A stretch of DNA of 46,070 bases from Stagnimonas sp. (GTDB lineage Bacteria > Pseudomonadota > Gammaproteobacteria > Nevskiales > Nevskiaceae): NCBI GenBank assembly GCA_030652575.1, contig JAUSQI010000036.1, positions 1 through 46,070 on the forward strand. Reading direction: 5' to 3'. This document shows positions 10,142 to 29,915 of this stretch, piece after piece. Positions within the stretch are counted from its first letter, which is position 1, and the number at the start of each line of letters is the position of its first letter. The position numbers and the translations under genes are program-made. The notes under the pieces were generated by a model. The model made no database searches. It saw only the letters and a program-made list of their open reading frames with translations, and was not told the DNA's origin.

Positions 10142-10166
10142 TCTTTTGCATCAATGGATTGAAACC

Positions 10167-10505: not shown

Positions 10506-10558
10506 TTGCTTTTGAAGTTGGCGGCATTTGCCGCCGACCTAATTACCCGAAAAAAGCC

Positions 10559-12418: not shown

Positions 12419-12424
12419 GCAGCC

Positions 12425-13354: not shown

Positions 13355-13365
13355 AGGGTTTGTCC

Positions 13366-13405
13366 GTGCAACAAAAAGGCCGCATTCGCGGCCTTTTTGT
13401 TGCAC
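13366..13405. terminator. Bidirectional terminator between secF and suhB
   Basis: Perfect 18-bp arms (13366-13383 and 13388-13405) around ATTC. The core AAAAAGGCCGC/GCGGCCTTTTT has A- and T-runs on opposite sides, so it serves both secF (plus) and suhB (minus), which converge here. Confidence 0.93.
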
Positions 13406-13412
13406 GCCACCT

Positions 13413-14210
13413 TCAGGCGGCGGGCTGTGCGGGCATGAAGGTGCCCAGCGTGTCCTTGAGCGAGGCGATCAGCTTGTTGTTGCTGGCCAGGATGTGCCCA
13501 TGCGTCAGCACGTCACCCGCAGCCAGCCCGGTGACGACACCGCCTGCCTCCTGCACCAACACGATGCCGGCGGCGATGTCCCAGGGTTTGAGATTCAGCT
13601 CGAAGAAGCCATCGAGTCGGCCTGCGGCCACATAAGCGAGGTCGAGGGCGGCTGCACCGGCGCGACGCAAGCCGGCCGTGTTTTCTGCGACGCGACGCAT
13701 CATCGGCAGATAGCTGTCGAGCATTTCAGGATTGCGGATCGGCACGCCGGTGCCGATGAGTGCATCGTCGAGATCCTTGATCTTGCTCACCCGCACGCGC
13801 TTGTTGTTGAGCGTGGTGCCGCTGCCGCGGCTGGCCACGTAGAGATCCTGCGTCGCCGGCGCATACACCACGCCGTGTTCCAGACGGCCGCGCACTTCAA
13901 CGCCGATCGACACCGCGAAGTGGGGCAGGGCGTGCAGAAAATTGGTGGTGCCATCGAGCGGGTCGATGATCCAGCGCACTTCGTCGTCGCTGCCGGATGC
14001 ACCGCCTTCCTCACCCAAAATGGCGTGGTGCGGATAGTGCTTGCGGATGATCTTGACGATCTCGGCTTCGGCGCCGCGATCCACCTGTGTGACGAAATCG
14101 CTCAGGCCCTTGCGCTCGATCTTGAGCGAATCCGCCCGGTCGAAGTTGCGCATGATGTAGTTGCCGGCAGCACGCGCTGCGAGCAAGCCGACGTTGGCAA
14201 GAGGTTCCAC
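13413..14210 (-). CDS. suhB: Inositol-1-monophosphatase family protein SuhB
   Basis: A 265-residue Mg-dependent inositol monophosphatase family protein. In E. coli SuhB also joins the rRNA antitermination complex. Metal-site motifs seen: GEEGG (Glu67/68), WIIDPLDGTTNF (Asp83, Asp86) and WDIAAG (Asp211). The start is set at GTG 14210-14208 because MEPLANVGLLAARAAGN aligns with E. coli MHPMLNIAVRAARKAGN and gives the family length (267 in E. coli); AAGG lies upstream. An ATG at 14252-14250 is in frame but adds 14 atypical residues, overlaps the trmJ start codon and would lie upstream of the likely -10 box. It diverges from trmJ, as suhB does in other proteobacteria. Confidence 0.92.
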   Translation of the reverse strand: MEPLANVGLLAARAAGNYIMRNFDRADSLKIERKGLSDFVTQVDRGAEAEIVKIIRKHYPHHAILGEEGGASGSDDEVRWIIDPLDGTTNFLHALPHFAVSIGVEVRGRLEHGVVYAPATQDLYVASRGSGTTLNNKRVRVSKIKDLDDALIGTGVPIRNPEMLDSYLPMMRRVAENTAGLRRAGAAALDLAYVAAGRLDGFFELNLKPWDIAAGIVLVQEAGGVVTGLAAGDVLTHGHILASNNKLIASLKDTLGTFMPAQPAA

Positions 14211-14234
14211 GGGCAAGGCCTTGAAAGAGCGAAG

Positions 14235-14250
14235 GTTTAGAATACCACGC
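14235..14250. promoter_or_regulatory. Overlapping divergent -10 boxes for suhB and trmJ
   Basis: On the plus strand TAGAAT (14238-14243) stands 7 nt before the trmJ ATG. On the minus strand TATTCT (14244-14239) carries an upstream TG as in extended -10 promoters and would start the suhB transcript about 25 nt before the GTG at 14210. The two boxes share five base pairs. Neither has a good -35. Confidence 0.45.
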
Positions 14251-15066
14251 ATGTCGAGAAATCCCGTCACCAACCCCAACGTGCGCTTCGATGATCTGTT
14301 CGATCCTCGCCTCGCCAACATCCGCATCGTGCTCAGCCGCACGCAGAATCCGGGCAACATCGGCGCGGCCGCGCGCGCGATGATGACGATGGGCCTGCGC
14401 GACCTGGCCCTCGTCAACCCCGAGCGCTACCCGCATCCGCAAGCCCGCGCGCAGGCCAGCGGTGCGCTCAACGTGCTGGAGGAAGCGCCGGTTGTCGCCA
14501 CCCTCGAAGAAGCCGTGAGCGACTGTGCCTGGGTCGTCGGCACCTCGGCGCGGGCGCGGCATCTCGGCGACGAGCCGATGACGCCTGAGGCCTTTGCCGA
14601 AAAAGCGAAAGAGATCAGCAAGACCGGCAAGGTGGCGCTGGTGTTCGGCTACGAACAGAGCGGACTCACCAACGAGGAACTGGACCGCTGCAATGCCGTG
14701 GTGGCGATCCCGACCAACCCCGGCTACAGCTCGCTGAATCTGGCGCAGGCGGTGCAGGTGCTGTGCTACACGCTGCGCCGCACGGCCATCACCGAAGTGC
14801 CGCGTGTGACGATGAAAAGCGACAACCCCATCTATCAGCCACCGACGGCCGAGCAGACCGAGCAGTTCTATGAACACATGGAACGCGTGCTGCTGGGCAC
14901 GGGGTTTCTCGACCCCAAGAATCCGCTGGTGGCAATGCGCCGCCTGCGCATGCTGTTCAACCGCGCGCAGCCGGACTTGAACGAGCTCAACATGCTGCGC
15001 GGCCTGCTCACCACCGTTGAAAAACCCAAGCGCCGCCGCATTCTCGGTGAAGGCAACGAGGACTAG
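14251..15066 (+). CDS. trmJ: tRNA (cytidine/uridine-2'-O-)-methyltransferase TrmJ
   Basis: A 271-residue SPOUT methyltransferase that 2'-O-methylates position 32 of several tRNAs using S-adenosylmethionine. Seen: IRIVLSRTQNPGNIGAAARA (motif 1, about residues 20-39), the knot motif FGYEQSGLTNEELDRCN, and YSSLNLAQAVQVLCYTLRR (motif 3). The start MSRNPVTNPNVRFDD is chosen because the upstream open frame carries no family sequence. No Shine-Dalgarno is at the normal distance, and a TAGAAT box ends 7 nt before the ATG, so the mRNA may be leaderless. cysE begins 3 bp after the stop. Confidence 0.94.
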   Translation: MSRNPVTNPNVRFDDLFDPRLANIRIVLSRTQNPGNIGAAARAMMTMGLRDLALVNPERYPHPQARAQASGALNVLEEAPVVATLEEAVSDCAWVVGTSARARHLGDEPMTPEAFAEKAKEISKTGKVALVFGYEQSGLTNEELDRCNAVVAIPTNPGYSSLNLAQAVQVLCYTLRRTAITEVPRVTMKSDNPIYQPPTAEQTEQFYEHMERVLLGTGFLDPKNPLVAMRRLRMLFNRAQPDLNELNMLRGLLTTVEKPKRRRILGEGNED

Positions 15067-15069
15067 AAC

Positions 15070-15807
15070 GTGCTTTCCCAACTGGCAGACGACATCCGCA
15101 ACATTCGCGCCCGCGACCCCGCTGCGCGCTCGGTGCTGGAGGTGCTCACCTGCTATCCCGGCCTGCACGCCGTCTGGGGCCATCGCGTCTCGCGCTGGCT
15201 GTGGTTGCACGGCCTCAAATGGCTGGCGCGGCTCAATTCGCATATCGCGCGCGGATTGACCGGCATCGAAATCCATCCCGGCGCGGTGATTGGCCAGCGT
15301 CTGTTCATCGACCACGGCATGGGCGTGGTGATCGGTGAAACCGCCGAGATTGGCGACGACTGCACGATCTACCAGGGCGTAACGCTCGGCGGCACCAGTC
15401 TGGACAAGGGTGTGAAGCGCCATCCAACTTTGGGCAATGGCGTGGTCGTGGGCGGCGGCGCGAAGGTGCTCGGCAGTTTCACGGTGGGCGAAGGCGCGCG
15501 CATCGGCAGCAATGCCGTGGTGGTCAAGGCTGTGCCGGCGGGGGCGACTGCGGTGGGCATCCCCGCGCGCATCATCAGTGATGTAGGTGAGGCGGCGACG
15601 CACGGCTTCGATGCCTACGGCATCACCAAGGACATGCCCGACCCGGTCGCCAATGCCATCCGCGCGCTGCTCGGCCATGTGCAGGCCCTGCAGGCGGAAG
15701 TGCAGGCGCTCAAGGCCGGGCCGGATACCTTCATCGAACCGATCGGGTCGAGCAAGAAGATCGAACTCGGCGATGACTGTGGGGAGTTCGGCCAGAAGTC
15801 TGGCTAG
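15070..15807 (+). CDS. cysE: Serine O-acetyltransferase
   Basis: A 245-residue hexapeptide-repeat enzyme that makes O-acetylserine from serine and acetyl-CoA, the committed step to cysteine. Seen: the N-terminal helical region ([20 protein letters not shown]), the left-handed beta-helix with [24 protein letters not shown] split over repeats, and catalytic His/Asp in [19 protein letters not shown] and GSNAVVVK complete the coils. It starts with GTG 15070, 3 bp after trmJ. It is followed after 2 bp by a cysteine desulfurase, so cysteine production and its use for sulfur transfer are encoded in one run. The C-terminal tail of about 45 residues after PARI is a usual variable tail. Confidence 0.95.
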
Positions 15808-15809
15808 CC

Positions 15810-16928
15810 ATGCCGGCCTACCTCGACCACAACGCCACCACGCCGGTCGACCCGCGCGTCGTCGACGCGATGCTGCCCTATCTCAAAGGGCCGTACGGCA
15901 ATCCCAGCAGCCTTCATCGCTTTGGCCGCGCCGCGCGAGATGGCGTGGAGCGCGCGCGGGCGCAGGTCGCGACCTTGCTGGGCGCACAACCACAGCAGCT
16001 GATCTGGACCAGCGGCGGCACCGAGGCCAACAACCTCGCCTTGAAGGGTTTGTGCACCGGCAAGCCGCAAGGTCGCGTGCTGTATGGCGCGACCGAACAT
16101 CCGGCGGTGATGGAGGCTGCCGAGAGCCTCAAGCGCGACGGTTGGCTCGTGGAAAAAATAGCGATGACTAGTGACGGGCTCATCGACTGGCCTGCCTTCA
16201 CCGCCCAATGCGCAGCCGGGCCGGTGCGGGTGGCGAGCCTCATGGCCGCCAACAACGAGACCGGCGTGATTCAAGACACCGCCAGAGCCGCCCCACTCGT
16301 GCATGCCGCCGGCGGCTGGCTGCATGTCGATGCCACCCAGGCCGCCGGCAAGCTGCCGTTGTCGTTCGTCGAAAGTGGTGCGGATTTGCTTACCTTGAGC
16401 AGCCACAAGCTCTACGGCCCCAAAGGCATCGGCGCGCTGGTGGTGAAAGCCGAGGTGGACTTGAGCCCTTTGCTGCACGGCGGCGCGCAGGAGCGCGGCC
16501 TGCGCGGCGGCACCGAGAACCTGCCCGCCATCGTCGGTTTTGGTGCTGCCGCCGAGCTCGCCCTGCTGGAACTGGACGAACGCACGGCGCACGTGCAGGC
16601 CTTGCAGGCGCAACTGGAAGCTGGCCTGAGGGAGATGCCCGCGGTTCGTCTGTTCGCCGCCGCCGCGCCACGGTTGCCCAATACCTCGCAGTTCGCCCTC
16701 GCGGGCTGGGAGGGCGAGGCACTGCTGATGCACCTCGACCGCAAGGGCTTTGCGGTGAGCAGCGGCTCGGCCTGCGCCAGCGGCAGCGGTGAGCCCAGCC
16801 ATGTTTTGCTGGCGATGGGTGTGGATGAGACCACTGCCAAGGGCGCGATACGCGTGAGTTTCGGCAAGGGCAACACGAGCGATGAAGTAAAAGGCTTTTT
16901 GACTGTGCTATCGGGTTTTTCTAGCTAG
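15810..16928 (+). CDS. Cysteine desulfurase (NifS/IscS family), 3' end at an IS boundary
   Basis: A 372-residue PLP enzyme that removes sulfur from cysteine as an enzyme-bound persulfide. Seen: YLDHNATTPVDP at the N-terminus, His97 (TEHPAV), Asp174 (HVDATQAAGK), PLP Lys200 (SSHKLYGPKG) and catalytic Cys322 (SSGSACASGSGEPSHVL). It starts 2 bp after cysE. The last codons (16890-16926) become AT-rich, and the stop TAG at 16926-16928 is made of the TA and first G of the inverted repeat of an IS5-type remnant. The natural C-terminus may therefore have been cut by a few residues, though all catalytic parts are present. A second desulfurase lies beyond the IS island. Confidence 0.92.
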   Translation: MPAYLDHNATTPVDPRVVDAMLPYLKGPYGNPSSLHRFGRAARDGVERARAQVATLLGAQPQQLIWTSGGTEANNLALKGLCTGKPQGRVLYGATEHPAVMEAAESLKRDGWLVEKIAMTSDGLIDWPAFTAQCAAGPVRVASLMAANNETGVIQDTARAAPLVHAAGGWLHVDATQAAGKLPLSFVESGADLLTLSSHKLYGPKGIGALVVKAEVDLSPLLHGGAQERGLRGGTENLPAIVGFGAAAELALLELDERTAHVQALQAQLEAGLREMPAVRLFAAAAPRLPNTSQFALAGWEGEALLMHLDRKGFAVSSGSACASGSGEPSHVLLAMGVDETTAKGAIRVSFGKGNTSDEVKGFLTVLSGFSS

Positions 16929-17990
16929 TCGCCCCTGAAGAATTCGTTTTCACGCGATTACGGGTGCAAACCGGAAGGCGAAGGCGCGATTTTCCGGGAG
17001 CGCTGATGAGATCAGGTGCTGCAAGAAGAGCACAAAAGAGGCGATCCACCGCAGCAGCCATCTCAGGTTGTAGCCGGCAGCGCAGAGTAGGGCGTGATGC
17101 GCATCGCCTTCTTGGCCTTTCAGGGCACAGCGGCGCATGCCGCAGTCGTCTTTGACGTGACCGATGATCGGTTCGATGGCTTGGCGTCGTTTCACCCAGC
17201 GCCACTGACTTCGGGTGAGTCGCTTGGCCTTGCCGCGATGCAGGATGGTCGTACCGTCGATCTCTCGCCCCCGGAATCCCAGATCGACAATGGCGGTCTG
17301 CGGCTTGATCCGGGTCAGACACTCGACCTGCTCCAGCTGCTCTTGCAGGGTGTCGCCGTCGTAGGGATTGCCGGGGAAACTTCTGGCTCCGACGATCAGC
17401 CCCTGTCTCGCCGTGATGGCCAATCCCACCTTCACCCCGAATTCGTAGGGCTGACGCGCCTTGCCCTTGCCGATGCACTCGTCGACCTCCGGCGCATGCA
17501 GGGCATACAGCTTGTCTTTGTCTTTCGGGCGTTGTCGGTGCAAGCGCGCTGCACGCTCCAGTCAAGGCGTGAGGGCTTCGCGGGCGGCCGCACTGGCCCC
17601 GGCCAGCTGGCGCTGCACATCCCGCAGCAGCCGTCCCAGGATCGTGCGCTGGCGCTCCATGAGTCGCACCGGCAAGGCCGGACGACCGCCGGCGACCGGG
17701 GCCGGTGGCAGGGTGTCCTGAAGGGCATCTTCGAGTGCCGCCCAGGGCATCCGCTGGGCCAGGCGGATCAGGGGATGTCGCAGATCCACCTGCCCATCCA
17801 ACCGCGAGCGAAACAGATCGTCGCTCCGCGCTGCAGATGTCTCCGAAGCCGTCAATCGATGACGCTCAAACCTCCCGAAATTGCCAGAAATCCACACGCG
17901 GATTCTCTCTTCCCGGCAATCCAGACTCCACAGAAAACGATCAGAAACCTATAGACAACGTGGCTTCAGGGGATTCTTCAGGGGCGACTA
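16926..17990 (-). mobile_element. IS5-family element remnant A (about 1.07 kb, intact ends)
   Basis: An 18-bp perfect terminal inverted repeat TAGTCGCCCCTGAAGAAT occurs at 16926-16943 and, inverted, at 17973-17990. The outer TA on each side may be a target duplication, not part of the element. A partial second copy of the end (CTTCAGGGG) sits just inside the right end. The only gene is a broken transposase on the minus strand. The insertion point coincides with the stop codon of the upstream desulfurase. Confidence 0.88.
16950..17897 (-). pseudogene. IS5-family transposase, internal deletion plus nonsense codon
   Basis: The N-terminal part (LFRSRLDGQVDLRHPLIRLA) is typical of one large IS5-family DDE transposase group. 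The chain then jumps from PALPVRLM straight to ERQRTILGRLLRDVQRQLAG. In intact relatives about 80-100 residues lie between, including the YLKH/NPYWQYFCG region and the first catalytic Asp. A TGA at 17562-17564 interrupts the same frame in the line LTP-stop-LERAARLHRQRPKDK. After it come KLYALHAPEVDECIGKGKA, the second Asp (IVDLGFRG) and the Glu (AIEPIIGHVK). With one catalytic Asp missing and a stop in frame, it cannot be an active transposase. Confidence 0.88.
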
Positions 17991-18056
17991 TTTACCTACT
18001 CGCAGCGAATTGCACACACTCAGGACGCTACCTAAACGCAATGAAATTTCTCCAGT

Positions 18057-18092
18057 TGGGTAATAGACGACAATCAAGCCGTCTATTACCCA
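18057..18092. repeat. 13-bp perfect palindrome with 10-nt loop downstream of the secreted-protein gene
   Basis: TGGGTAATAGACG (18057-18069) and CGTCTATTACCCA (18080-18092) are perfect inverted arms. It lies 21 bp beyond the stop of the minus-strand 305-residue gene. There is no T-run, so it is either a terminator-like or mRNA-stabilising stem or a protein/recombination site at the edge of the AT-rich island. Confidence 0.55.
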
Positions 18093-18112
18093 TTCTGATA
18101 AATATCAAGATC

Positions 18113-19030
18113 CTATGGTGTTGAGTAATATGAGCATGTCGGATAGAAAAATGTATTTGGACCTAGAGAAATACTGCCGCTCGTGCATTGATAAGCGTAG
18201 AAAGTGCGGCGACCGCCACCGGCTGTGGATCCACCGTTAAGATTTTCCTTGCCTTCAACATTGTTTCCAGATTGTCGTGTACCGTCAGCATTGGTTACAG
18301 AATCTAACTGAAATCTTACAACCTCTGACCCACCTAGAGGATCGATATCGACGAGTATCGTCGAGCCATCTTCAAATCTCAGGGTGTGCGTAGAAACATT
18401 TGATTGATTGATCAGAAATTTAGCGACTCTTAACCAAATCAGTGAAATGGCACCAAAGTTACGAGCGATTACTTGCGACGTTAAATAATTGCGTACATTA
18501 AGCGCTACCTGTTCATCGGTTACTACCTTATTAGCATTAGTACAACCACATGCCTGTGCTGGAATTGGAATTGGTAAAATTCCGTGCAATGAGTCACCGC
18601 CATCTTTAGAAGTTAAGTTATAAAAAACGGAGCCATTGCTTTTATTCCAAGTCGACGTTTGGTTTGGATCATACGCCATTTGAGCAGAATTAAGACGCTG
18701 ACGGATGTAGCTGAAGAGGTTGTAGCCCTCAACTAAATCATTTGGCGCGGCATCAACGTAGGCGCTAGTAATTAATCCGCCTGTTCCGTTCGGCTCTTTT
18801 TCGACTTTCACTGGCCAATACAAATTTTGCAAGGAGTTGAAGATCCAAAATTCTTGGGTTCCTACGCTTGGGGTAGCCAGCGACTTACTCTTATTAATAG
18901 CTGCGGTTTGATTGGTGCAAGTCTGGCATAGGAACATCCTTGGGTCCGCTGATGCGTTAAAGCTGAGAATCAAAGCAGCCATCAGAAAAATAAATTTTCC
19001 AGTTACATTAATTTTTCTATTTGCTTTCAT
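18113..19030 (-). CDS. Predicted secreted protein of unknown function with paired cysteines
   Basis: A 305-residue protein not recognised as any family. Seen: a Sec signal peptide (hydrophobic run KFIFLMAALILSFNASA, cleavage likely after ASA near residue 28); the mature part begins DPRMFLCQTC. Further cysteines lie in ACGCTN and near the end in YQCTSG and YPTCSYY, six in total, which suggests disulfides in the periplasm or outside. The last 60 residues are Gly/Ser/Asn-rich. The ATG at 19030 has AGGGAAAA upstream and lies 1 bp after the stop of a small membrane-protein gene. Base composition is far more AT-rich than the neighbours, which indicates transfer from another source. An effector/immunity-like pairing is conceivable but unproven. 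Confidence 0.7.
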   Translation of the reverse strand: MKANRKINVTGKFIFLMAALILSFNASADPRMFLCQTCTNQTAAINKSKSLATPSVGTQEFWIFNSLQNLYWPVKVEKEPNGTGGLITSAYVDAAPNDLVEGYNLFSYIRQRLNSAQMAYDPNQTSTWNKSNGSVFYNLTSKDGGDSLHGILPIPIPAQACGCTNANKVVTDEQVALNVRNYLTSQVIARNFGAISLIWLRVAKFLINQSNVSTHTLRFEDGSTILVDIDPLGGSEVVRFQLDSVTNADGTRQSGNNVEGKENLNGGSTAGGGRRTFYAYQCTSGSISLGPNTFFYPTCSYYSTP

Positions 19031-19031
19031 A

Positions 19032-19445
19032 TTATTTTCCCTGTTGTTTGAATATTTTATGACGAAATTTACTTATCAAAATTGAAAACACCATTGGACT
19101 CGCCGTGAATACTACTGCGTCCTTAATTGTTGCAAAGCCAGAATAATCAAATGAAAAGTTTACCTGCAACAACGAAATCATGGAATAACTTAGCGGCAGA
19201 ATCGCGACAAAGAATGCCCCCACTAGTGCGCGTTCCTGCAAAAGCCATCGCAAAGCTAATGCGGCAAAAAAACCATTTATAGCTACAGAAGCAACTTGAA
19301 GCGCATCCTTTATAATGTAGTATTTATCTACCGATTCGTATTTTTCAACAAAAGGACTCGAAAAGTAAGCCTGTAAATAAACATTAATTAATGCAACACC
19401 AAAAAAATACAGTAGCGCAATTATAAATGTCATTACTATTTTCAT
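19032..19445 (-). CDS. Small integral membrane protein of unknown function
   Basis: A 137-residue hydrophobic protein, not recognised. Four likely membrane segments are seen: MTFIIALLYFFGVALINVYL, ASVAINGFFAALALRWLL, VGAFFVAILPLSYSMISLL and AVVFTASPMVFSILIS; the tail KFRHKIFKQQGK is basic and so probably cytoplasmic. The ATG at 19445-19443 is chosen because it places the first TM at the N-terminus. The frame is open to 19505, but that stretch runs into the end of IS remnant B. It is the first gene of a two-gene minus-strand operon with the secreted protein, 1 bp apart, and shares its AT-rich composition. No homologue can be named. Confidence 0.65.
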   Translation of the reverse strand: MKIVMTFIIALLYFFGVALINVYLQAYFSSPFVEKYESVDKYYIIKDALQVASVAINGFFAALALRWLLQERALVGAFFVAILPLSYSMISLLQVNFSFDYSGFATIKDAVVFTASPMVFSILISKFRHKIFKQQGK

Positions 19446-19494
19446 AAAATCATCCGGCTTTTGGGGATAACCTGAAAGATTGTTGCTTAAAAGA

Positions 19495-20157
19495 AAACCC
19501 TGCACAAGTCACTGAAGGATCGGCTGCGCGGGTAACTTGGGGCGAGTCGGCGGGGTTGATCGCTTGGAAGCGAGCCCAGCGGGTTGCACTGGTTGCCCTT
19601 CTTCGTTTGACTCATGTCCGGATCGCGCGCGCCGTCGGCATTCTTGGTTGAGGGTGGGGCCGCAATCAGAGTGGCATCCACCACCGTCCACCGCCTTAGC
19701 AGCATTCCCTGCTCCTAGAGCAAGTGATTCACCACGCCCAGTATCGACGGAGCCAACTGGTTTTCTTCCAGCATCCGCCGGAATCGCAAAATGGTGCTTT
19801 CGTCCGGTAGTGCCTCACCGCCATCCAGGCCAGCAAACCGACGCAGCAAAGGCTAGTCGATCAGGGCTTCTTCCATCGCTTCGTTGGCACAGCCAAACCG
19901 CTGCTGCATCAAATGAATCCGCAGCATCGAAGCCAGGGGACACGGCTGACGGCCTCGTCCAAACGCCGGGTAGTGCGGGCGAATCAGGTCTTCCAGACCA
20001 GACCACGGGACTACTGCATCCATCTCAGCCAATAACACCTGACGGCACGTCGCACGCCGAGTCCACTCAAAGCCCGTTTCCGATAAGCCCAGCTGCACCG
20101 CCAACTCACTCCTTCCTCAGATCGCCGCATTCAACTCGCAAGACTTGTGCAGGGTTT
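19495..20157 (-). mobile_element. IS5-family element remnant B (deletion derivative, 663 bp)
   Basis: A 16-bp perfect terminal inverted repeat AAACCCTGCACAAGTC lies at 19495-19510 and, inverted, at 20142-20157. It differs from that of remnant A, so the two elements are unrelated insertions. The internal gene keeps only the N-terminal half of a transposase; the distal half is deleted up to the end sequence. No obvious flanking target duplication is seen. Confidence 0.87.
19589..20104 (-). pseudogene. IS5-subgroup transposase N-terminal half with two in-frame TAG codons
   Basis: One continuous minus-strand frame reads VQLGLSETGFEWTRR, MDAVVPWSGLEDLIRPHYPA, LASMLRIHLMQQRFG, then TAG at 19855-19853, then LPDESTILRFRRMLEEN, a second TAG at 19717-19715, then TVVDATLIAAPPSTKNADG (the first catalytic Asp region) and KKGNQ. 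After KKGNQ (about 19590) the expected WYFGMKAHIG is replaced by unrelated sequence running to the IS end. In relatives both stop positions carry ordinary sense codons, often Ser. The rest of the DDE domain is missing, so the gene is dead although its frame is otherwise preserved. Confidence 0.85.
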
Positions 20158-20210
20158 CCTTCAGGTGGCTCATTGGTGGCTCAAGCCCCGCCCTAGGTAA
20201 AATGGTCGCC

Positions 20211-21776
20211 ATGATCTATCTCGACTACGCGGCCACCACGCCGCTGGCTCCCGAAGTGCTGACGGCGATGCAACCCTATCTGACGGATGTGTTCGCCAAT
20301 CCCGCCAGCGATCACGGGCCGGGGCGCAAGGCGAAAAAGGCCGTGGAGGGTGCAAGAGCGCAAGTGGCCGCACTGATCGGCGCGACGCCCGAAGAAATCA
20401 TCTGGACCAGCGGTGCGACCGAGGCCAACAACCTCGCCATCAAGGGCGCGCTGGAGTTCCGCGGCGTCGACAACGCCCACATCGTCACCAGCAAGACCGA
20501 GCACAAGTGCGTGCTCGACACCTGCCGCCATCTCGAATCCGTGTATGGCGCACGCGGTCTGCGCGTCACTTATCTCAAGCCTGGCCCCGAGGGTTGCGTG
20601 ACCGCACAGCAGGTCATCGACGCCCTCACGCCACAGACCGTGCTGGTGTCGCTGATGTGGGTCAGCAACGAGCTGGGCACCATCAACGAGGTCGAGCAGC
20701 TCGCGCTGCTTCTGCGTGAGCGCGGCGTGCTGCTGCATGTCGATGCCGTGCAGGCGGCGGGCAAACTGGTGATTGATCTGGCCACGACGCCAATCGATCT
20801 GCTCTCGCTCAGCGCCCACAAAATTTATGGCCCCAAAGGCATCGGTGCGCTGTTCGTGCGCAAGCGGCCGCGCGCGCGCGTCGCCCCGCAGCTGCATGGC
20901 GGCGGGCACGAGCAGGGGATGCGCAGCGGCACGCTGGCCCCACACCAGAGTGTCGGCATGGGGGCTGCGTTTGCACTGGCGGCGACGCGGTTGGCCGATG
21001 ACGCGACCCGCATCAGCGCGTTGCGCGACCGCCTGTGGATGCGCCTGCAAGCCCTGCCGCGTCTGCATCGCAACGGCAGCGGCGCAGCGGCCCCGCACAT
21101 CCTCAACGTCAGCTTCGAAGGCGTGGAGGGCGAGGCGCTGCGGGCGATGTTGCCCGCGCTGGCGGTGTCTTCCGGCTCGGCATGCTCCAGCGCCACGCGC
21201 GAACCGAGCTATGTATTGCGGGCGCTGGGCCGCAGCGACGCGCTGGCCAATGCCAGCCTGCGGTTCTCGCTGGGCCGCAGCACGACCGAGGCCGAGATCG
21301 ACGCGGCTGCGCGGCAGTTAATCGACGCGGTGCTGTGGCTGCGCGACATCAGCGGCGATGCCGCAGGCAGCGTCGCAGCGCCCACTTCCGACAACGTGTT
21401 CGACTATCCGACCCCGCTCTGGACGCAGTTTCTGGAGGCCGCCGGCAACAGCGGCGAGTTCGCGGCCGGCACCGCCGACGTGGTGACGGTCAAGGTCGAG
21501 AACCGGGCCAGCGCCTCCTGGCTGGCCCTGCATCTGCGGGTTGCCGAAGGCCGCGTGGTCGATGCGCGCTTCACCGCGTTCGGATGCCCCGTGGGCATTG
21601 CGGTCGGCCACTGGCTGGCGGTCTGGGCCATCGGCAAAACCGCCGCCGAGCTGCATGCGCTCACGACGGCGGAATTGCGCCGCGTGCTTGAAATCCCCGA
21701 CGACAAGCTCCACTGTGCACTCATGGGCGAAGACGCCCTCCAGTCGATTGCCATCCCCCAAGCCCAAACCAGATGA
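20211..21776 (+). CDS. Cysteine desulfurase fused to an IscU-like scaffold domain
   Basis: A 521-residue fusion. Residues 1-380 are a complete cysteine desulfurase: His98 (TEHK), Asp178, PLP Lys204 ([10 protein letters not shown]), catalytic Cys325 ([17 protein letters not shown]). Residues about 396-515 resemble Isc[12 protein letters not shown] (Cys459, matching IscU Cys63) and [11 protein letters not shown] (Cys502, matching Cys106). No cysteine lies between 401 and 458, so the IscU Cys37 equivalent is absent. The HscA-binding LPPVK motif reads EIPDDK (494-499). The start [12 protein letters not shown] is chosen; an in-frame ATG lies at 20202, and a TAAAAT box ends 7 nt before 20211. iscA overlaps the stop by 4 bp (ATGA). 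The gene starts 53 bp after IS remnant B. Confidence 0.88.
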
Positions 21777-22093
21777 TCCAGCTCACCGCCCCTGCCGCCA
21801 AACGCATCAATGCCCAGCTCGCCAAGCGCGGCTCCGGCGTCGGTTTGCGGCTGGGTGTGAAGAAGTCCGGCTGCTCGGGCTGGGCCTATGTGCTCGATTA
21901 CGCCGACGCCATCGAGCCGGGCGATCAGGTGTTCGAGACCGAAGGTGCGAAGGTGGTGGTCAAGACCGAGCAGCTCGACAAGCTCGACGGCATCACGCTC
22001 GATTTTCAGCGCGACGGCCTGAACGAAGCCTTCAAGTTCATCAACCCGAACGTGAAGGGCGAATGCGGTTGCGGCGAGAGCTTCGCGGTCTGA
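21773..22093 (+). CDS. iscA: A-type iron-sulfur carrier protein IscA
   Basis: A 106-residue A-type carrier that binds iron or Fe-S clusters and passes them to target enzymes. The three conserved cysteines are present: Cys34 ([10 protein letters not shown]), Cys98 and Cys100 (GECGCGESF). The length equals E. coli IscA (107). Its ATG overlaps the stop of the fused desulfurase gene (ATGA), so translation is coupled and the two proteins are probably made together. iscR, hscB, hscA and fdx are not in this window. The last codons are repeated imperfectly just downstream (22113-22143). Likely customers nearby are IspG and RlmN, both Fe-S proteins. Confidence 0.94.
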
Positions 22094-22143
22094 CGATCGC
22101 GCTTCACCGGACTGCGGCGAGAGCTTATCGTCTAGCGATCACG
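22070..22143 (+). repeat. Imperfect direct repeat of the iscA 3' end
   Basis: The segment TGCGGCGAGAGCTT followed by CGCGGTCTGACGATCGCG (22070-22101) recurs as TGCGGCGAGAGCTT followed by ATCGTCTAGCGATCACG (22113-22143). The first 14 bases are identical. The copy lies outside the gene and appears to be a small tandem duplication that has since drifted. Confidence 0.6.
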
Positions 22144-22287
22144 ATGCTGCGCTGCGTCATTTGACGCCTTGCTGCGCTACAATGCTGATCCCGCGACGTT
22201 TTTAGGCCCGCCAAGAATGCTCTGGCGGACCGGCCCCAGATGCTTTTAGAGGCCAACGCGCATAAACCCCTAGTCGGACTTTCAGCA

Positions 22288-22719
22288 ATGGCCATCGAAC
22301 AAACCTTTTCCATCCTCAAGCCCGACGCGGTCGGCAAGAACAAGATCGGCGCGATCATCCAGCGCCTCGAAGAATCCGGCCTCAAGGTCGTCGCTGCCCG
22401 CATGATCCATCTCTCGCAGAAAGAAGCCGAAGGCTTCTACGCGGTGCACCGCGAGCGCGGGTTCTTCGCCGATCTGGTCAAGTTCATGATCTCCGGCCCG
22501 GTGATGGCGATGGCGCTGGAAGGCGAGAATGCCGTGCAGGTCTACCGCGACGTGATGGGTGCTACCAACCCCAAGAACGCAGCGCCCGGCACCATCCGCG
22601 CCGACTTCGCCGATTCGATCGACGAGAACGCCGCCCACGGCAGCGATTCACTTGAAAACGCGAAGATCGAGCTGGCTTACTTCTTCCGCACCACCGAGCT
22701 GTGCCCCCGCACCCGCTAA
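22288..22719 (+). CDS. ndk: Nucleoside diphosphate kinase
   Basis: A 143-residue enzyme that transfers the gamma-phosphate of ATP to nucleoside diphosphates through a phosphohistidine. Seen: [12 protein letters not shown] at the N-terminus, [18 protein letters not shown], and active-site His117 in NAAHGSDS. The start ATG 22288 gives [15 protein letters not shown] as in homologues; the open frame upstream to 22240 has no family sequence. A TACAAT box (22178-22183) and a hairpin with arms CCGCCA/TGGCGG (22208-22213/22223-22228) lie in the leader. It heads the run ndk-rlmN-pilF-rodZ-ispG-hisS-yfgM-bamB-der; rlmN starts 3 bp after the stop. Confidence 0.97.
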
Positions 22720-22722
22720 GGC

Positions 22723-23850
22723 ATGACTGATAGCGCGCCAGCCCAGCCAGCGACCCTGCCGACAGTCAATCTGTTCGGCCTGGATCGCACCGGCCTGCGC
22801 GCGCTGTTTGCGGAGCGGGGGGAGAAACCCTTCCGCGCCGACCAGGTGATGCAATGGATCTACCGTCGGGGTCTCGATGACTTCGACGGTATGACCAATG
22901 TCGCGAAAGACCTGCGCGGAAAGATGAAGCACTGGTTCTCGATTGAGACGCCTGAGCTGATCGCCGAACAGACTTCCACCGACGGCACCCGAAAATGGGT
23001 CTTGCGGCTGGACGGCGGCAATGCCGTCGAAACCGTTTACATCCCCGAAGACAATCGCGGCACGCTCTGCATCAGTTCGCAGGTGGGTTGCGCGATGGAC
23101 TGCTCGTTCTGCTCCACCGGCAAGCAGGGCTTCAACCGCAACATGACGGCGGCGGAGATCATCGCCCAGGTCTGGTTCGTGGCCCGTGCGCTGGGTAGCG
23201 ACTTCCAGAACGAGCGCGTCATCAGCAACGTGGTGTTCATGGGCATGGGCGAGCCGATGGCCAACTACCAGCCAGTGGTCACCGCCATCCGCATCCTGCT
23301 CGATGATTTCGGCTTTGGGCTTTCGAAGCGCCGCGTCACCGTCAGCACGAGTGGCTTGGTACCGTTCATGGATCGCCTGCGCGAAGACGTTGATGTGGCT
23401 CTGGCCGTCTCGCTGCACGCGCCCAACGACGACCTGCGTGACAAGTTGGTGCCGATCAATCGCAAGTATCCTCTCGGCGAGCTGATGGATGCCTGTCATC
23501 GCTACACCCAGGGCAAGGGCCCCAAGGCCCACATCGTCTACGAGTACGTGATGCTCGATGGCGTCAACGACTCGCTCGGCCATGCGAAAGAACTCGCAAG
23601 GCTCTTGGGCAATCTGCCCGCCAAGATCAATCTCATCCCGTTCAATCCCTTCCCCAAGGCAGGCTACAAGCGCTCGCCTTCGGAAAGAATTCGCGCGTTT
23701 GCCGAGTACCTGCGCAGCCGCGACATCGTCTGCACCACCCGCAAGACGCGCGGCGATGACATCGACGCCGCCTGCGGCCAGCTGGTGGGCGAGGTCATGT
23801 CGAAGCAGAAGAACCGCCTGGCCAATATCGCGGTACAGGTCGCCTCATGA
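22723..23850 (+). CDS. rlmN: Dual-specificity RNA methyltransferase RlmN
   Basis: A 375-residue radical-SAM enzyme that methylates C2 of A2503 in 23S rRNA and A37 in some tRNAs. The cluster motif CAMDCSFC supplies Cys123, Cys127 and Cys130. The two catalytic cysteines are Cys116 (TLCISS, matching E. coli Cys118) and Cys351 (DIDAACGQL, matching Cys355). GMGEPMANY and VSLHAPND are also typical. It starts 3 bp after ndk and overlaps pilF by 4 bp (ATGA). As a [4Fe-4S] enzyme it depends on Fe-S assembly, part of which is encoded just upstream. Confidence 0.97.
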   Translation: MTDSAPAQPATLPTVNLFGLDRTGLRALFAERGEKPFRADQVMQWIYRRGLDDFDGMTNVAKDLRGKMKHWFSIETPELIAEQTSTDGTRKWVLRLDGGNAVETVYIPEDNRGTLCISSQVGCAMDCSFCSTGKQGFNRNMTAAEIIAQVWFVARALGSDFQNERVISNVVFMGMGEPMANYQPVVTAIRILLDDFGFGLSKRRVTVSTSGLVPFMDRLREDVDVALAVSLHAPNDDLRDKLVPINRKYPLGELMDACHRYTQGKGPKAHIVYEYVMLDGVNDSLGHAKELARLLGNLPAKINLIPFNPFPKAGYKRSPSERIRAFAEYLRSRDIVCTTRKTRGDDIDAACGQLVGEVMSKQKNRLANIAVQVAS

Positions 23851-24554
23851 AATGGCTGGCGCTGCTGTTGCCCTTGGTGATCGCTGGCTGCGTGACCACG
23901 GGCGGCTCGCAGGACAGCGAGAAGAATCTCGACGAGGCGGCGCGCACCAACACCACCCTGGCGATCGAATACGCCCGCAAGGGCAATTACGACATGGCGA
24001 TGGAAAAAGCCCAGCGCGCGCTCTCGCAAAACGAGCGCTATGCGCCGGCGCATAGCGCCATCGCCCTCATCTACGCGCAGCGCGGTGACGATGCCGAGGC
24101 GGCCAAGCATTTCCGCCGAGCGATCTCGCTGGACTCCAAAGACCTGTTTACCCGCAACAATTTCGCGATCTTCGAGTGCGAACGTGGCCGCACCAACGAA
24201 GCGCTGGAGCTGTTCGAGAGTGTCGCGCGCAACAAGAGTTACAACGCGCCAGATGCCGCGCTCATCAACGCGGGTGTCTGCGCCAATCGCGGCAATCGCC
24301 CGGACAAGGCCGAGGCGTACTTCCGCGAAGCCCTGCAAGTGCGGCCCGAAAACCCCGAGGCCCTGCTACAGCTCGCTGAAATGGCCAGCAAGAAACAGGA
24401 CTGGCTGAAAGTGCGTGCCTTCATCCAGCGGCGTGACCGCGTTGCCAAGCCTTCGCAGGAATCGCTGCGTCTGGCCATCCGGGCCGAGCAGGCCCTGGGC
24501 GACCGCGACAATGCCGCACGTCTGAGCCAGCAGCTGCAGCGCGAGTTTCCCTAA
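23847..24554 (+). CDS. pilF: Type IV pilus biogenesis/stability lipoprotein PilF (PilW)
   Basis: A 235-residue outer-membrane lipoprotein that assists assembly or stability of the PilQ secretin. The lipoprotein signal MKWLALLLPLVIAGC has its lipobox cysteine at residue 15. The rest is a chain of TPR helices: NTTLAIEYARKGNYDMAMEKA, APAHSAIALIYAQRGDDAEA, and on to about residue 200. Its ATG overlaps the rlmN stop. This position, between rlmN and rodZ, is standard in betaproteobacteria and gammaproteobacteria. It implies that the host has type IV pili, although no other pil genes are in the window. Confidence 0.92.
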   Translation: MKWLALLLPLVIAGCVTTGGSQDSEKNLDEAARTNTTLAIEYARKGNYDMAMEKAQRALSQNERYAPAHSAIALIYAQRGDDAEAAKHFRRAISLDSKDLFTRNNFAIFECERGRTNEALELFESVARNKSYNAPDAALINAGVCANRGNRPDKAEAYFREALQVRPENPEALLQLAEMASKKQDWLKVRAFIQRRDRVAKPSQESLRLAIRAEQALGDRDNAARLSQQLQREFP

Positions 24555-24629
24555 ACTTTCGCCACAGGCGATGGGCTTGATGCGTCTACAATCCACGTCT
24601 CTCCGATCGTCGTTCACCTTAAGCGGCTC

Positions 24630-25490
24630 ATGACTGGCATCACTGACTTGCACAGCGACATTCCAACCTCCAACGCCGCTGGGCAGGGCCCTGGCCGCCT
24701 GGTGCGCCAGGCGCGCGAACAGAACAAACTCTCGCTCGAAGATCTGGCTGCCCAGATCAAGCTGTCCCGCTTCACGCTGGATGCCATCGAACGCGACGAC
24801 TTCGCACAGCTCAACGAGCCGGTGTACGTGCGCGGTTATTACCGCAAGCTCTCCAAGGTGTTGCCGGTCGCCGAAGCAGATCTGATGGCCGCCTACGAGC
24901 GTGTGGCGGGCCACAAGACGCCGCCGCATCCCTCCAAGCTCATCCTCGCCGGCGGAGCGGAACTCGGCAGTGGCCGGCGTATCAGCTTCAAGCTGGCAAT
25001 GGCGATCATCCTGCTGGGCTTGGTAGTCGGCGCACTCGCGTTCTGGGGTAAAAACCACACGCTGCTGCCTACCGTGACGCCGCCAGCCGTCGAGACGACG
25101 CCATCCGAAACCAGGCCCGAGTTGGCGCCGACGACGGAGGCACCTGCTCCGGTCGCGCCATCGCCTGAGGCCGCCGTGAGTTCGCCCGTCGCACCCGCAG
25201 TGCCTGCTGCAAGCGAGCCCGTTTCTGCTGCCGTAATGCCAGCAAATGCCACCGGCCCGCTGCAAATCCAGTTCAATGGCAGCTCCTGGACCGAGGTGAA
25301 AGACGCCACCGGCAAGGTATTGCTCTCCGGCCTGGTCGAGTCCGGCAGCAATCAAGCGCTGGATGGCAAGCCGCCGTTCGTGGTGTTTCTTGGCAACGCG
25401 CCGGGCGTCAAGATCACCTACAACGGTCAGTCGGTGGATACCTCCCAGTATCATCGCGGCGACAACACGGCGCGCATCACGCTGCCCTAA
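24630..25490 (+). CDS. rodZ: Cytoskeletal protein RodZ
   Basis: A 286-residue bitopic inner-membrane protein that links MreB filaments to the cell-wall elongation machinery. Order seen: a cytoplasmic helix-turn-helix domain (about 20-90; [35 protein letters not shown]), one TM segment ([18 protein letters not shown], near 120-140), a Pro/Ala/Thr-rich periplasmic linker (about 148-205), and the DUF4115 beta domain ([21 protein letters not shown] to the end). It lies between pilF and ispG, its usual place. ispG begins 2 bp after the stop. Confidence 0.92.
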
Positions 25491-25492
25491 TC

Positions 25493-26587
25493 ATGTCGAT
25501 GAAGGCGCAGCATGTGATCGTCCGGCGCAAGTCGCGGCAGATCAGTGTCGGCAAGGTGCTGGTGGGGGGCGATGCACCCATCGCCGTGCAGACCATGACC
25601 AACACCAAGACCGAGGATGTTGCCGCCACGGTTGCGCAGATCCTGGCCGCCAGGAAGGCAGGCGTGGATATCGTCCGCGTCTCGGTGCCGACCATCGCCG
25701 CCTGTGAAGCCTTTGGCGAAATCAAGAAACGGGTGGGTGATCTGCCGCTGATTGCCGACGTGCATTTCAACTACAAGTGCGCGCTCAAGGCCGCCGAGAT
25801 GGGCGCCGACTGCCTGCGCATCAACCCCGGCAACATCGGCAGCGATGCGAAAGTGGCCGAGGTGATTGCCTGCGCGCGCCACTACGGCGTGCCGATCCGC
25901 ATTGGTGTGAATGCCGGTTCGCTCGAGGGCGATCTGCAGGAAAAATACGGCGAGCCCAATGCCGACGCGCTGGTGGAATCCGCACTGCGCCACATCAACA
26001 TCCTGAAGAAGCACAACTTCGAGGACTTCAAAGTCTCGTTGAAGGCGAGCGAAATCTTCATGACCGTCCACGCCTACCAGAAGCTCGCCAAGCTCATCGA
26101 CCAGCCGCTGCATCTTGGCATCACCGAGGCCGGCAGCCTGCGCAGTGGCGCGGTGAAGTCCTCCATCGGTTTGGGCATGCTGCTGGCCGATGGCATCGGC
26201 GACACCATCCGCATCAGCCTTGCTGCCGACCCGGTGGAAGAAGTGAAAGTCGGCTGGGATATTTTGAAGTCGCTGCACCTCCGCAACCGCGGCATCAACC
26301 TGGTGGCCTGCCCCAGTTGCTCGCGGCAGATGTTCGATGTCATCAAGACCGTCAACGAACTCGAAGCGCGGCTGGAAGACGTTACCGAACCTATCGACCT
26401 TGCCATCATCGGCTGTGTCGTCAACGGGCCCGGTGAGGCGCGTGAGGCCACGCTTGGCGTCGCCGGCGGTCGCCCCAATTCGATCTATATCGGCGGCGCG
26501 ATCCAGCACAAAATTCACAACGAGAACCTTGTGGACGAGCTCGAAAAATTGGTGCGCCAGCAGTTGGCCGAGCGCGCTGCCGCATGA
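25493..26587 (+). CDS. ispG: 4-hydroxy-3-methylbut-2-enyl diphosphate synthase (flavodoxin/ferredoxin)
   Basis: A 364-residue [4Fe-4S] enzyme of the MEP isoprenoid pathway. It converts 2-C-methylerythritol cyclodiphosphate to HMBPP in the cytoplasm. A TIM-barrel part comes first ([30 protein letters not shown]), then the reductase-like domain with cluster ligands Cys273, Cys276 (ACPSCSRQ) and Cys308 ([11 protein letters not shown]) and the fourth ligand Glu315. These match E. coli Cys270, Cys273, Cys305 and Glu312. It starts with [10 protein letters not shown]; a second ATG two codons later is possible. It overlaps hisS by 4 bp (ATGA). Confidence 0.97.
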
Positions 26588-27870
26588 GCAAGTTGCAATC
26601 GCTGAGAGGCTTCAACGATGTTCTGCCGGCACAGTCCGCGCTGTTCCGTCGTGTGTTCGCCACTGCCGCCGACGTCGCCAGCCGCTACGGCTACGGCGAG
26701 CTGCGGCTGCCGCTGCTTGAAGCCACTACGCTGTTCAAGCGCGCCGTCGGTGAAGTGACGGACGTGATCGAGAAGGAGATGTATTCCTTCGACGATCGCG
26801 ATGGGGTTTCAGTGAGTCTGCGCCCTGAGCTGACCGCAGGCACCGTGCGGGCAGGCATCGAGCACGGCCTGTTGCACAACCAGCAGCAGCGTTTCTGGTA
26901 TGCGGGCCCGGCCTTTCGCCACGAACGGCCGCAGGCTGGGCGCTATCGCCAGTTTCATCAGGTCGGTGTCGAGGCCTACGGCATGGCAGGGCCGGACATC
27001 GACGCCGAGGTCATCGCCTTCTCGCATCGCTTTTTGACGGCGCTCGGCATTGGCGGACTCAAGCTCGAAATCAATTCGCTGGGTGGGGCCGAGGCGCGGG
27101 TGAATTACCGCGCGGCACTCATCAACTATCTGTCGCGCTTCGAGGCCGAGCTGGACGAAGACTCCAAGCGCCGCCTGCACACCAACCCGCTGCGCGTGCT
27201 CGACTCGAAAGTGCCGCGCACGAAAGAGATCGTCGCCGACGCCCCGCAGCTTGCCGACTATCTGGAAACCGAATCCCGCGCCCACTTCGACGGCTGGCGG
27301 CAGGCGCTGGAAGATTTGGGCATCGCCTACGAGGTCAGCCCGCAACTGGTGCGTGGTCTCGACTACTACACACGCGGCGTGTTCGAGTGGACCACTACCG
27401 AACTCGGCAGCCAGGGCACGGTGCTGGCCGGTGGCCGCTACGACAATCTGGTCTCGCAACTCGGCGGTTCGCCATCACCGGCTGTGGGCTGGGCGAGCGG
27501 GGTGGAGCGTCTGGTGCTGTTGCTGGAAAAACAGCAATCGCAAGCCGCTGCCGACGCCCCGCAGGTTTATTTCTGCACGATGGGCGAAGCGGCGGAGCGG
27601 CAGGCGCGCATCGTCGCCGAGGACCTGCGCAACCGCTTGCCGCAGTTGCGGCTGGTGCTCAATGCCGGTGGTGGCAAGCTCAAGAGCCAGCTGGGCCGAG
27701 CCGAGAAATCCGGCGCGGGCTTGCTGCTGGTGCTGGGCGAGTCGGAACTGGCCGAGGGCGCGGTTCAAGTAAAATCCGCGATCCAGTCGGCAACGGCCCA
27801 TCAGCAGGCCAGCGGCGAGCGGGTGATTTTTGCTGCTTTGGCTGATTTTCTCGCCACCCGATTGGTCTGA
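26584..27870 (+). CDS. hisS: Histidyl-tRNA synthetase
   Basis: A 428-residue class II aminoacyl-tRNA synthetase. Seen: [12 protein letters not shown] at the N-terminus, motif 2 [17 protein letters not shown], the His-binding [15 protein letters not shown], motif 3 around [15 protein letters not shown], and the C-terminal anticodon-binding domain ending [19 protein letters not shown]. The ATG overlaps the ispG stop, so translation is coupled. A short stem CTGACCG/CGGTCAG (27880-27886/27893-27899) without a T-run lies just after the gene, before yfgM. Confidence 0.97.
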
Positions 27871-27926
27871 ATGCAACCCCTGACCGTGTCCGCGGTCAGT
27901 CCACACAACGAACGGAGTTTCACAGC

Positions 27927-28559
27927 GTGTCCCACTACGATGACGAAGACCAAGCCCAGCGCGTCAAGCAATGGTGGAAGGAAAACTGGATCGCCCTCGC
28001 TGCAGGCCTGGTTCTCGGCCTGGGCGGCATCGTCGGTTGGGATCAGTACAAGGCGCACCAGCAGACACGCGGCGCCGAAGCGGCCCGCATGTTCGAAGAT
28101 CTGAAAACCGCGCTGCTCACCGACAAGGCCGACGAGGCCAACGCCATCGCCGACAAGCTCAAGACCGAGTTCGCCGGCACGCCGTACGCCGCACAGGCGC
28201 TGCTGCGCGTCGCCCAGCACGCGGTCGAGAAAGGCCGCTTCGACGAAGCCCTGCCGCCGCTCGCCTGGGTTGCCAGCAACTCGGAAGACAAGGTGTTGAA
28301 GCCGCTTGCGCAGTTGCGCCAGGCGCGTGTGCTGTCGCAGCAGGGCAAGTTCGACGAGGCCATCAAGCTGCTCGACGGCAATGCCGACGACAGCTACAGC
28401 GCATTGGTGCAGGAGCTGCGCGGCGACATCCTGCTGGCGCAGGGCAACCGCAAGGGCGCGCGCGAATCGTTCCAGAAAGCGCTCACCACCAGCGATGCCG
28501 CTGCCGCCAATCGTGAAACGCTGCAACGCAAGATCGACGATCTTGCCGACGCCGCCTGA
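27927..28559 (+). CDS. yfgM: YfgM-type tetratricopeptide repeat protein
   Basis: A 210-residue inner-membrane protein with a short cytoplasmic N-terminus (SHYDDEDQAQRVKQWWKEN), one TM anchor (WIALAAGLVLGLGGIVGW, about 17-35) and a periplasmic TPR domain. E. coli YfgM associates with the SecYEG translocon and the chaperone PpiD and helps hand over secreted proteins. The start is GTG 27927 with GGAG 11 nt upstream. Its place between hisS and bamB is conserved. bamB follows within 30 bp. Confidence 0.93.
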   Translation: MSHYDDEDQAQRVKQWWKENWIALAAGLVLGLGGIVGWDQYKAHQQTRGAEAARMFEDLKTALLTDKADEANAIADKLKTEFAGTPYAAQALLRVAQHAVEKGRFDEALPPLAWVASNSEDKVLKPLAQLRQARVLSQQGKFDEAIKLLDGNADDSYSALVQELRGDILLAQGNRKGARESFQKALTTSDAAAANRETLQRKIDDLADAA

Positions 28560-28586
28560 TGCATCTTGAGTTTTGAGGAGAATCGC

Positions 28587-29750: not shown

Positions 29751-29915
29751 AACGATTTATTCCCTTCTGCCGCGTCTTGCGGGAGAGGGGTCAGGGGTAA
29801 GGGGCTGTCTGCCGCTAGCCCCCTTCCCGCGCTTGATCGGGTCGAGGCTGACACAATGTCGGCCCGCCTTGGTCAAACGTTCTCCCGTCCGCGGGAGCGT
29901 GAGTAGGTTTTAGTT
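29751..29915. repeat. bamB-der spacer with G-rich repeat-like sequence and a hairpin
   Basis: A 165-bp spacer with no gene. GCGGGAGAGGGG followed by TCAGGGGTAAGGGG (near 29780-29804) resembles G-rich intergenic repeats common in GC-rich proteobacteria. A stem CTCCCG/CGGGAG (29882-29887/29892-29897) lies just before the der start and could fold in the leader. Confidence 0.4.

Follow-up and report, generated by a model that had tools for sequence, protein, structure and literature searches.

An IscS cysteine desulfurase fused to a decayed IscU domain at an eroded isc locus of Stagnimonas, and its relatives among the Gammaproteobacteria

Each protomer of the Escherichia coli cysteine desulfurase IscS takes either IscU or TusA, in competition, and both partners change IscS activity, according to PMC11302665. 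According to PMC2854127, IscS residues 374–404 form part of the IscU interface and are reported to be necessary for IscU binding, the K103E substitution in IscU and the removal of IscU residues 1–12 each abolish binding to IscS, and C37 is proposed as the first sulfur acceptor on IscU. Work on IscU has treated it as a scaffold, and what it does to IscS is not easily told apart from its part in building clusters. CyaY/frataxin, IscX and TusA have folds unrelated to that of IscU. In SufU the equivalents of C37 and D39 are the sulfur acceptor and a Zn ligand. PMC10631705 describes ISC and SUF as mutually exclusive in Gammaproteobacteria and IscU as not clearly monophyletic in preliminary trees. 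Homologues of each part of the protein described below, and the exclusion between ISC and SUF, are already known; among the open-access papers that our searches listed, covered through titles and abstract openings, we saw neither a fusion of IscS with IscU nor an IscU orthologue lacking the scaffold cysteines.

The stretch of DNA analysed here, the window, comprises 46,070 nucleotides of contig JAUSQI010000036.1 from Stagnimonas sp. The open frame at 20211–21776 on its plus strand encodes a 521-residue protein, P0001, with the following features:

20211–21365, plus strand: IscS-type cysteine desulfurase domain, residues 1–385 (Aminotran_5, alignment with IscS, predicted model)
20820–20822, plus strand: codon of the PLP lysine K204, invariant among three aligned desulfurases
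21183–21185, plus strand: codon of the catalytic C325, invariant among three aligned desulfurases
21366–21398, plus strand: linker replacing the canonical IscS C-terminal tail (alignment with E. coli IscS)
21399–21773, plus strand: decayed IscU domain (U domain), residues 397–521 (NifU_N, PDB relatives, predicted fold)
21510–21518, plus strand: S434-A435-S436, replacing C37-G38-D39 (alignment to E. coli IscU)
21585–21590, plus strand: C459 (C63), then P460 (G64 in canonical IscU) (alignment)
21693–21716, plus strand: I-P-D-D-K (I495–K499), replacing LPPVK, then L-H501-C502 (H105, C106) (alignment)
21774–21776, plus strand: stop codon

A sequence-only reading of this DNA had described a complete desulfurase joined in frame to an IscU-like domain, and that description was borne out. 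Pfam assigned residues 2–365 to Aminotran_5 (E 3.1e-78) and residues 413–512 to NifU_N (E 8.5e-15 in the whole protein and 5.9e-16 for the U domain on its own), and both the PLP lysine and the catalytic cysteine expected of an IscS desulfurase are present. P0001 is 53% identical to E. coli K-12 IscS and its U domain 28% identical to E. coli K-12 IscU, and scores against the dedicated profiles fall below their cut-offs for the desulfurase (NF010611, 485.4 against 548 bits; TIGR02006, 477.3 against 643.2 bits, both IscS) as well as for the U domain (TIGR01999 for IscU, 49 against 192.4 bits; TIGR01994 for SufU, 17.3 against 92.5 bits). The top solved structures for the isolated U domain in a PDB sequence search were mitochondrial ISCU and bacterial IscU (best E 2.3e-12; E. 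coli IscU, 3lvl_A, 4.8e-12). Structures were predicted with AlphaFold2, that of the whole chain from an alignment of 57 sequences, those of the window and its relatives. Modelled alone, the U domain reached a pLDDT of 93.9, and in fold searches the prediction matched 3lvl_A with Z 18.0 (rmsd 2.6, 122 residues) and the best SufU, 5xt5_C, with Z 13.2. A C-terminal domain that is non-homologous to IscU, or that matches it by chance, is ruled out by the Pfam, PDB sequence and fold searches. The whole-chain model of 521 residues (mean pLDDT 88.9, pTM 0.87) matched IscS 3lvm_B with Z 50.9; fold searches with it returned desulfurases only, nearly all rows lying inside residues 1–387, and they therefore carry no information on docking of the U domain. 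Because the pTM exceeds what the desulfurase part, about 74% of the residues, should permit, the model suggests that the U domain is confidently placed.

Like E. coli IscU, the U domain combines the predicted fold and a position between iscS and iscA with C63, H105 and C106 (C459, H501 and C502 by alignment), K103 (K499) and Y3. Unlike it, the U domain lacks C37 and D39 (S434 and S436) and the LPPVK motif for HscA binding, has P in place of G64, has no hscB or hscA beside it, scores far below the TIGR01999 cut-off and is fused to IscS, the C-terminal IscU-binding tail of which is missing from P0001 and replaced by the linker. With SufU it shares the superfamily fold, but the structural and sequence matches are weaker and the equivalents of C37 and D39 are missing from the U domain. 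From residue 326 to residue 458 the translation is free of Cys, in agreement with the earlier remark that there is none between 401 and 458, and the two cysteines then noticed in the U domain, C459 and C502, are the ones that align to C63 and C106. The replacement of the HscA motif had also been recognized, but it was read as EIPDDK, which starts one residue early (I495-PDDK499), and the loss of D39 had not been mentioned.

The locus around P0001 contains these further features:

15070–15807, plus strand: cysE-like gene (name inferred), upstream marker of the isc locus (Hexapep)
15810–16928, plus strand: second, NifS-like desulfurase (TIGR03402, 399 bits, below the 530.75 cut-off)
16929–20210, no strand: 3.3-kb insertion that separates nifS from iscS and carries transposase remnants (DDE_Tnp_1, DUF772)
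21773–22093, plus strand: iscA (Fe-S_biosyn, E 2.4e-18; TIGR02011, 143.5 bits, below the 150.6 cut-off)
22240–22719, plus strand: ndk, 3′ flank of the isc locus (NDK, E 7.7e-56)
22723–23850, plus strand: rlmN (RlmN_N and Radical_SAM)

P0001 is preceded by secD-secF, suhB, trmJ, cysE and the NifS-like desulfurase and followed by iscA, the start of which overlaps the P0001 stop (ATGA) and the translation of which carries the GCSG and CGCGES cysteines, and then by ndk, rlmN, pilF, rodZ, ispG and hisS. Flank gene names are our presumption from the Pfam matches SecD_SecF_C, Inositol_P, SpoU_methylase, Hexapep, TPR, RodZ_C, GcpE and tRNA-synt_His, and secD is a putative assignment. Although detection of the flank genes is incomplete in some loci, the window and a second Stagnimonas locus (L074) share the order suhB-(trmJ)-cysE-nifS-iscS-U-iscA-ndk-rlmN-pilF-rodZ-ispG-hisS, and the same genes flank iscR-(nifS)-iscS-iscU-iscA-hscB-hscA in five HscA-bearing genomes (L214–L217 and L219), with ndk undetected in L214, L216 and L217 and trmJ and cysE undetected in L219; a sixth compared stretch, L218, has iscR and iscU only. 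A cysE-like match precedes iscR in the canonical loci L214–L217. None of the E. coli proteins IscR, HscB and HscA found a match in positions 10001–30000 of the window, and iscS, the decayed iscU, iscA and both flanks are present, while a Salinisphaeraceae locus (L115) retains iscR. Because of this gene-by-gene synteny with HscA-bearing isc loci, the window locus is an isc locus that has lost iscR and hscB-hscA, which contradicts the earlier suggestion of a module distinct from ISC, and the derivation of the U domain from the IscU of that locus is near certain. The NifS-like desulfurase, found upstream of iscS in 37 of the 45 loci L072–L116, has an intact SSGSAC loop in the window and occurs as well in the HscA-bearing loci L214, L216 and L217. 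The insertion behind it carries, on the minus strand, a DDE_Tnp_1 remnant at 16950–17543 and a DUF772 remnant at 19853–20104 (21.2 bits, slightly below its cut-off), and the genes at 18113–19030 and 19032–19505, both also minus, have no Pfam match. The nearest relative, L072, lacks the insertion and has a nifS-iscS gap of about 40 bases; the gap is about 0.9–1.0 kb in L073, L074 and L075.

The genome of the window (177 contigs, 95% complete) encodes a SUF operon, with a TIGR02944 regulator, SufB, SufC, SufD and SufS. NifU_N occurs in it once, in P0001, and a second NifU_N protein was sought elsewhere without success. No HscA scores above the cut-off in this 95% complete assembly, the HSP70 matches amounting to a 58-bit relative and two DnaK-like pieces that complement each other and both lie at contig ends. 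Among 83 genomes of the order, none has an HscA or an iscU (TIGR01999) above the cut-off, where lack of HscA is to be read as none above the cut-off, some hscA genes that adjoin iscU in other lineages scoring below it; one of 14 control genomes, presumably E. coli, passes the HscA cut-off and one the iscU cut-off. The expectation that the fused domain works without HscA-driven release is in keeping with these counts and with the lost motif. The arrangement resembles that of Mycobacterium tuberculosis, in which, according to PMC10848736, SUF is complete and an IscS persists as a remnant of ISC; unlike that lone iscS, which has neither iscU nor iscA beside it in this account (PMC10848736), the iscS of the window still has next to it an iscA that looks intact, as well as the decayed iscU. 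Two genomes of the window's family (G037 and G044) encode a separate NifU-like protein, in open frames of 346 and 341 residues, that matches TIGR01999 better than their isc-locus protein does.

Homologues of the U domain were found in 56 of the 58 genomes of the family, and profile A1 matched in 78 of the 83 genomes of the order, a few of these matches being weak or NifU/SufU-like; of the other five genomes, three have divergent remnants at the locus (L230, L231 and L233), and the contigs of the remaining two (L221 and L238) break off within iscS. By a frame test, 12 of the 45 loci L072–L116, which come from named genomes, are fused and 33 are split, and fused and free-standing forms alternate among relatives. 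Strain-named records with the fusion include Stagnimonas aquatica (L074), Stenotrophobium rhamnosiphilum (L095), Solimonas aquatica (L099) and Sinimarinibacterium sp. CAU 1509 (L104).

Another 93 loci from a class-wide survey (370 genomes), a closer search of 80 chosen genomes and stretches from the family and order brought the total to 138, one of which is a copy of another. Wherever hscB/hscA lies beside iscU, C37 and D39 are kept (26 of 26). Where iscS lies upstream and hscBA is not beside it, C37 or D39 has been lost in 94 of 97 loci, mostly in free-standing proteins, and both are kept in three (L136, L161 and L168). HscA is encoded elsewhere in the genome of L136; L161 and L168, from small genomes (1.3 and 0.9 Mb) with no HscA above the cut-off, keep C37, D39 and LPPIK and are exceptions to the decay rule unless a divergent HscA was missed. 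In the remaining 15 loci neither iscS nor hscBA was detected beside iscU, and eight keep C37 and D39. The 80 genomes were hand-picked as lacking an HscA-level match, and seven of them were misassigned: L127, L152, L154, L155, L157, L159 and L162 have hscB/hscA beside iscU, and all seven keep C37 and D39. Decayed IscU in an isc context was found in 31 family-level groups of Gammaproteobacteria, as judged by kinship codes. The decay of IscU is independent of fusion; fusion as the cause of the loss of C37 is ruled out, free-standing forms also lacking this residue.

The extent of decay is graded. Residues were counted on distinct sequences, 47 from the window's group (L072–L108 plus ten loci of the family, including a few MAG records under other names), 49 other decayed sequences, defined by the lack of at least one of C37, D39, C63, H105 and C106 and nearly all with iscS beside them, and 32 canonical ones. 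Left out were the NifU-type loci L164, L167, L169, L170 and L198 from the canonical set, L153, L160, L165 and L188, which have no iscS beside them, from the decayed set, L148 (a copy of L115), L001–L031 (for which named copies were used) and identical sequences. The canonical sequences, mostly the best A4 scorers of the class-wide survey, have all five key residues in 32 of 32 cases and LPPVK in 29, the three without LPPVK having I at position 102. In the window's group, C37, D39 and LPPVK are absent from all 47 sequences, Y3 and K/R103 are present in all 47, and 46 sequences retain C63, 46 H105 and 46 C106, L208 having lost C63 and L102 having lost C106. Among the other decayed sequences, C63 is kept in 24 of 49, H105 in 12, C106 in 10, D39 in 5 and C37 in none, the last count being so partly by definition, which is not the case for the 138-locus counts; K/R103 is present in 31 and Y3 in 29, and 23 of the 49 lack all three cysteines. 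C63 (C459) as the single universal functional residue, which it appeared to be within L072–L116, is ruled out by its presence in only 24 of the 49 sequences outside the window's group. Position 64 is P in 47 of 47 sequences of the window's group and in 41 of the 49 others and G in all 32 canonical sequences, so that P64 reads as a signature of the decayed class.

At the far end of the series iscU can no longer be detected. Of 44 genomes without HscA above the cut-off, chosen for lack of a match to the domain, 24 have a close desulfurase; 29 loci were found in the 44, and 24 were read, one per genome. In L220, L224, L226 and L227 the space between iscS and the iscA behind it would fit at most about 50 residues, and no iscU is detectable; L235, L237, L240 and L242 show the same arrangement, but with a NifS-like or more distant desulfurase in place of iscS. 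L228, L230, L231, L233 and L239 have weak remnants beside iscS. A desulfurase directly followed by iscA is a possible end state of IscU decay.

Of 93 desulfurases that partner a decayed IscU, 92 have H104, K206 and C328, and the remaining one is gapped at two of these positions. The tail after the active Cys measures 76–80 residues in 28 of 28 canonical IscS and, with a median of 62, 58–81 residues in the 56 split desulfurases measured beside a decayed IscU, a comparison that leaves out the fused rows and 20 rows in which the loop pattern was unfound or the score low; four of the 56 tails are long (78–81 residues), yet unlike the canonical tail. One desulfurase frame beside a decayed IscU (L085, 4691–5866) has a stop codon in a MAG, which may be an assembly error.

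NG86 estimates of dN/dS for the U domain lie between 0.10 and 0.35 in all seven pairs of fused proteins compared, against 0.06–0.28 for the desulfurase part and 0.02–0.20 for IscA in the same pairs, which share sequences and have dS near 1 in some cases. The U domain evolves faster than the desulfurase and IscA in these pairs, and the values suggest that it is still under selection and less constrained than its neighbours. A quick-search tree of 120 desulfurases, in which 48 of the 117 inner branches are open, several branches are long and the root is unknown, separates canonical from decayed sequences by one branch with support 97. All 18 fused rows fall among the 91 decayed ones, and the fused or split state changes at least 10 times, gain and loss not being distinguishable. 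A single origin of the decayed class is uncertain, given the long branches and the unknown root.

We lean, with some reserve, towards the view that the U domain no longer acts as a scaffold and serves as an accessory or partner-selecting subunit docked on IscS, P0001 being the IscS of an eroded isc operon together with its own decayed IscU. SUF would make the Fe-S clusters, and IscS would serve other uses of sulfur, such as tRNA thiolation. The decayed IscU would occupy the IscU site on IscS and, docked there, would tune desulfurase activity or the choice of partner, for example against TusA. Fusion would make occupancy of this site permanent, and since one protomer takes IscU or TusA and both alter its activity, a tethered U domain would disfavour the delivery of sulfur to TusA from the protomer that carries it. 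Alternatively, docking may have been weakened by loss of the tail, and the tether may restore it. The evidence that we count in favour of an accessory subunit includes the shared locus, the association of hscBA with C37 and D39, the lack of HscA and canonical iscU above the cut-offs in all 83 genomes of the order and the SUF operon; the intact IscS residues in 92 of 93 partners, the IscS-docking traits Y3 and K/R103 in 47 of 47 sequences, the dN/dS values and the pTM of 0.87 also appear consistent with it. Against it we count that K/R103 and Y3 fall to 31 and 29 of 49 outside the window's group and that the U domain evolves faster than the desulfurase and IscA. The tail that includes the IscU-binding segment is, moreover, mostly shortened in the partners, so that the binding of a free-standing decayed IscU may be weak or absent, and in lineages in which iscA follows a desulfurase too closely for an iscU to fit between them the subunit is dispensable. 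The earlier idea that the domain positions the desulfurase comes close to this accessory role.

The same reading had also proposed that the domain receives or relays sulfur. In the window's group, C459 (C63), C502 (C106) or both could still take persulfide from C325 and pass it on without building a cluster, an idea that fits the retention of C63, H105 and C106 (46 of 47 each) and the C328–C63 disulfide seen in E. coli, a species in which a C63-to-C106 transfer over about 4 Å is also proposed (PMC2854127). We nevertheless regard such a residual relay as unlikely even there, C37, the proposed first acceptor, being gone and each of the two cysteines having been lost once inside the group (L208, L102); outside it, 23 of 49 same-locus orthologues lack all three cysteines, so that a relay cannot be the shared function. 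The same three retained ligands, together with an iscA that overlaps the fusion gene and keeps its cysteines in translation, might instead form a minimal scaffold that builds or binds a cluster, or Zn, and passes it on without HscA; this is very improbable when none of the 47 sequences of the window's group has either C37 or D39, SUF is present in the same genome and no canonical IscU scores above the cut-off. That the U domain is a functionless relic, carried along by translational coupling and fusion during decay, would account for its fast evolution and for a graded loss that extends to disappearance of the gene, but we think it distinctly improbable in view of the dN/dS range in seven of seven pairs, the confidently predicted IscU fold (pLDDT 93.9) and the A1 match, sometimes weak, in all but five of the 83 genomes of the order. 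Of these five, three have divergent remnants at the locus and two are cut by contig ends. As for an artefact of sequencing or assembly, which a genome fragmented into 177 contigs might bring to mind, its chance is negligible: the same fusion is present in several strain-named records, including that of Stagnimonas aquatica, and in other MAGs, and it is therefore no assembly error.

An IscS-docked accessory subunit would resemble CyaY/frataxin, IscX and TusA as a non-scaffold partner of IscS, and would differ from them in its descent from the scaffold itself. Our broader and more tentative proposal, which we would not rate as probable, is a widespread class of "pseudo-IscU" proteins: once HscA was lost and SUF had taken over, at least 31 family-level groups of Gammaproteobacteria would have retained a scaffold-dead IscU as a subunit dedicated to controlling the sulfur partners of IscS, and repeated fusion of it to IscS would have made this control permanent. 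If true, pseudo-IscU would be a natural separation of the regulatory role of IscU from its scaffold role. The locus and its relatives provide a natural series in which IscU passes from nearly complete through cysteine-free to absent, beside or inside an IscS complete in its catalytic residues, and hence material on scaffold-free functions of IscU, on the replacement of ISC by SUF in Gammaproteobacteria and on the assignment of functions to residues. Such decayed proteins are easily annotated as IscU or as Fe-S scaffolds and are probably neither.

Three loci of a single family-level group, L153, L160 and L165, have S at position 37, keep D39, H105 and C106, keep C63 in two of the three and are followed by iscA, with no iscS beside them; judged by these residues, they represent a different kind of altered IscU.
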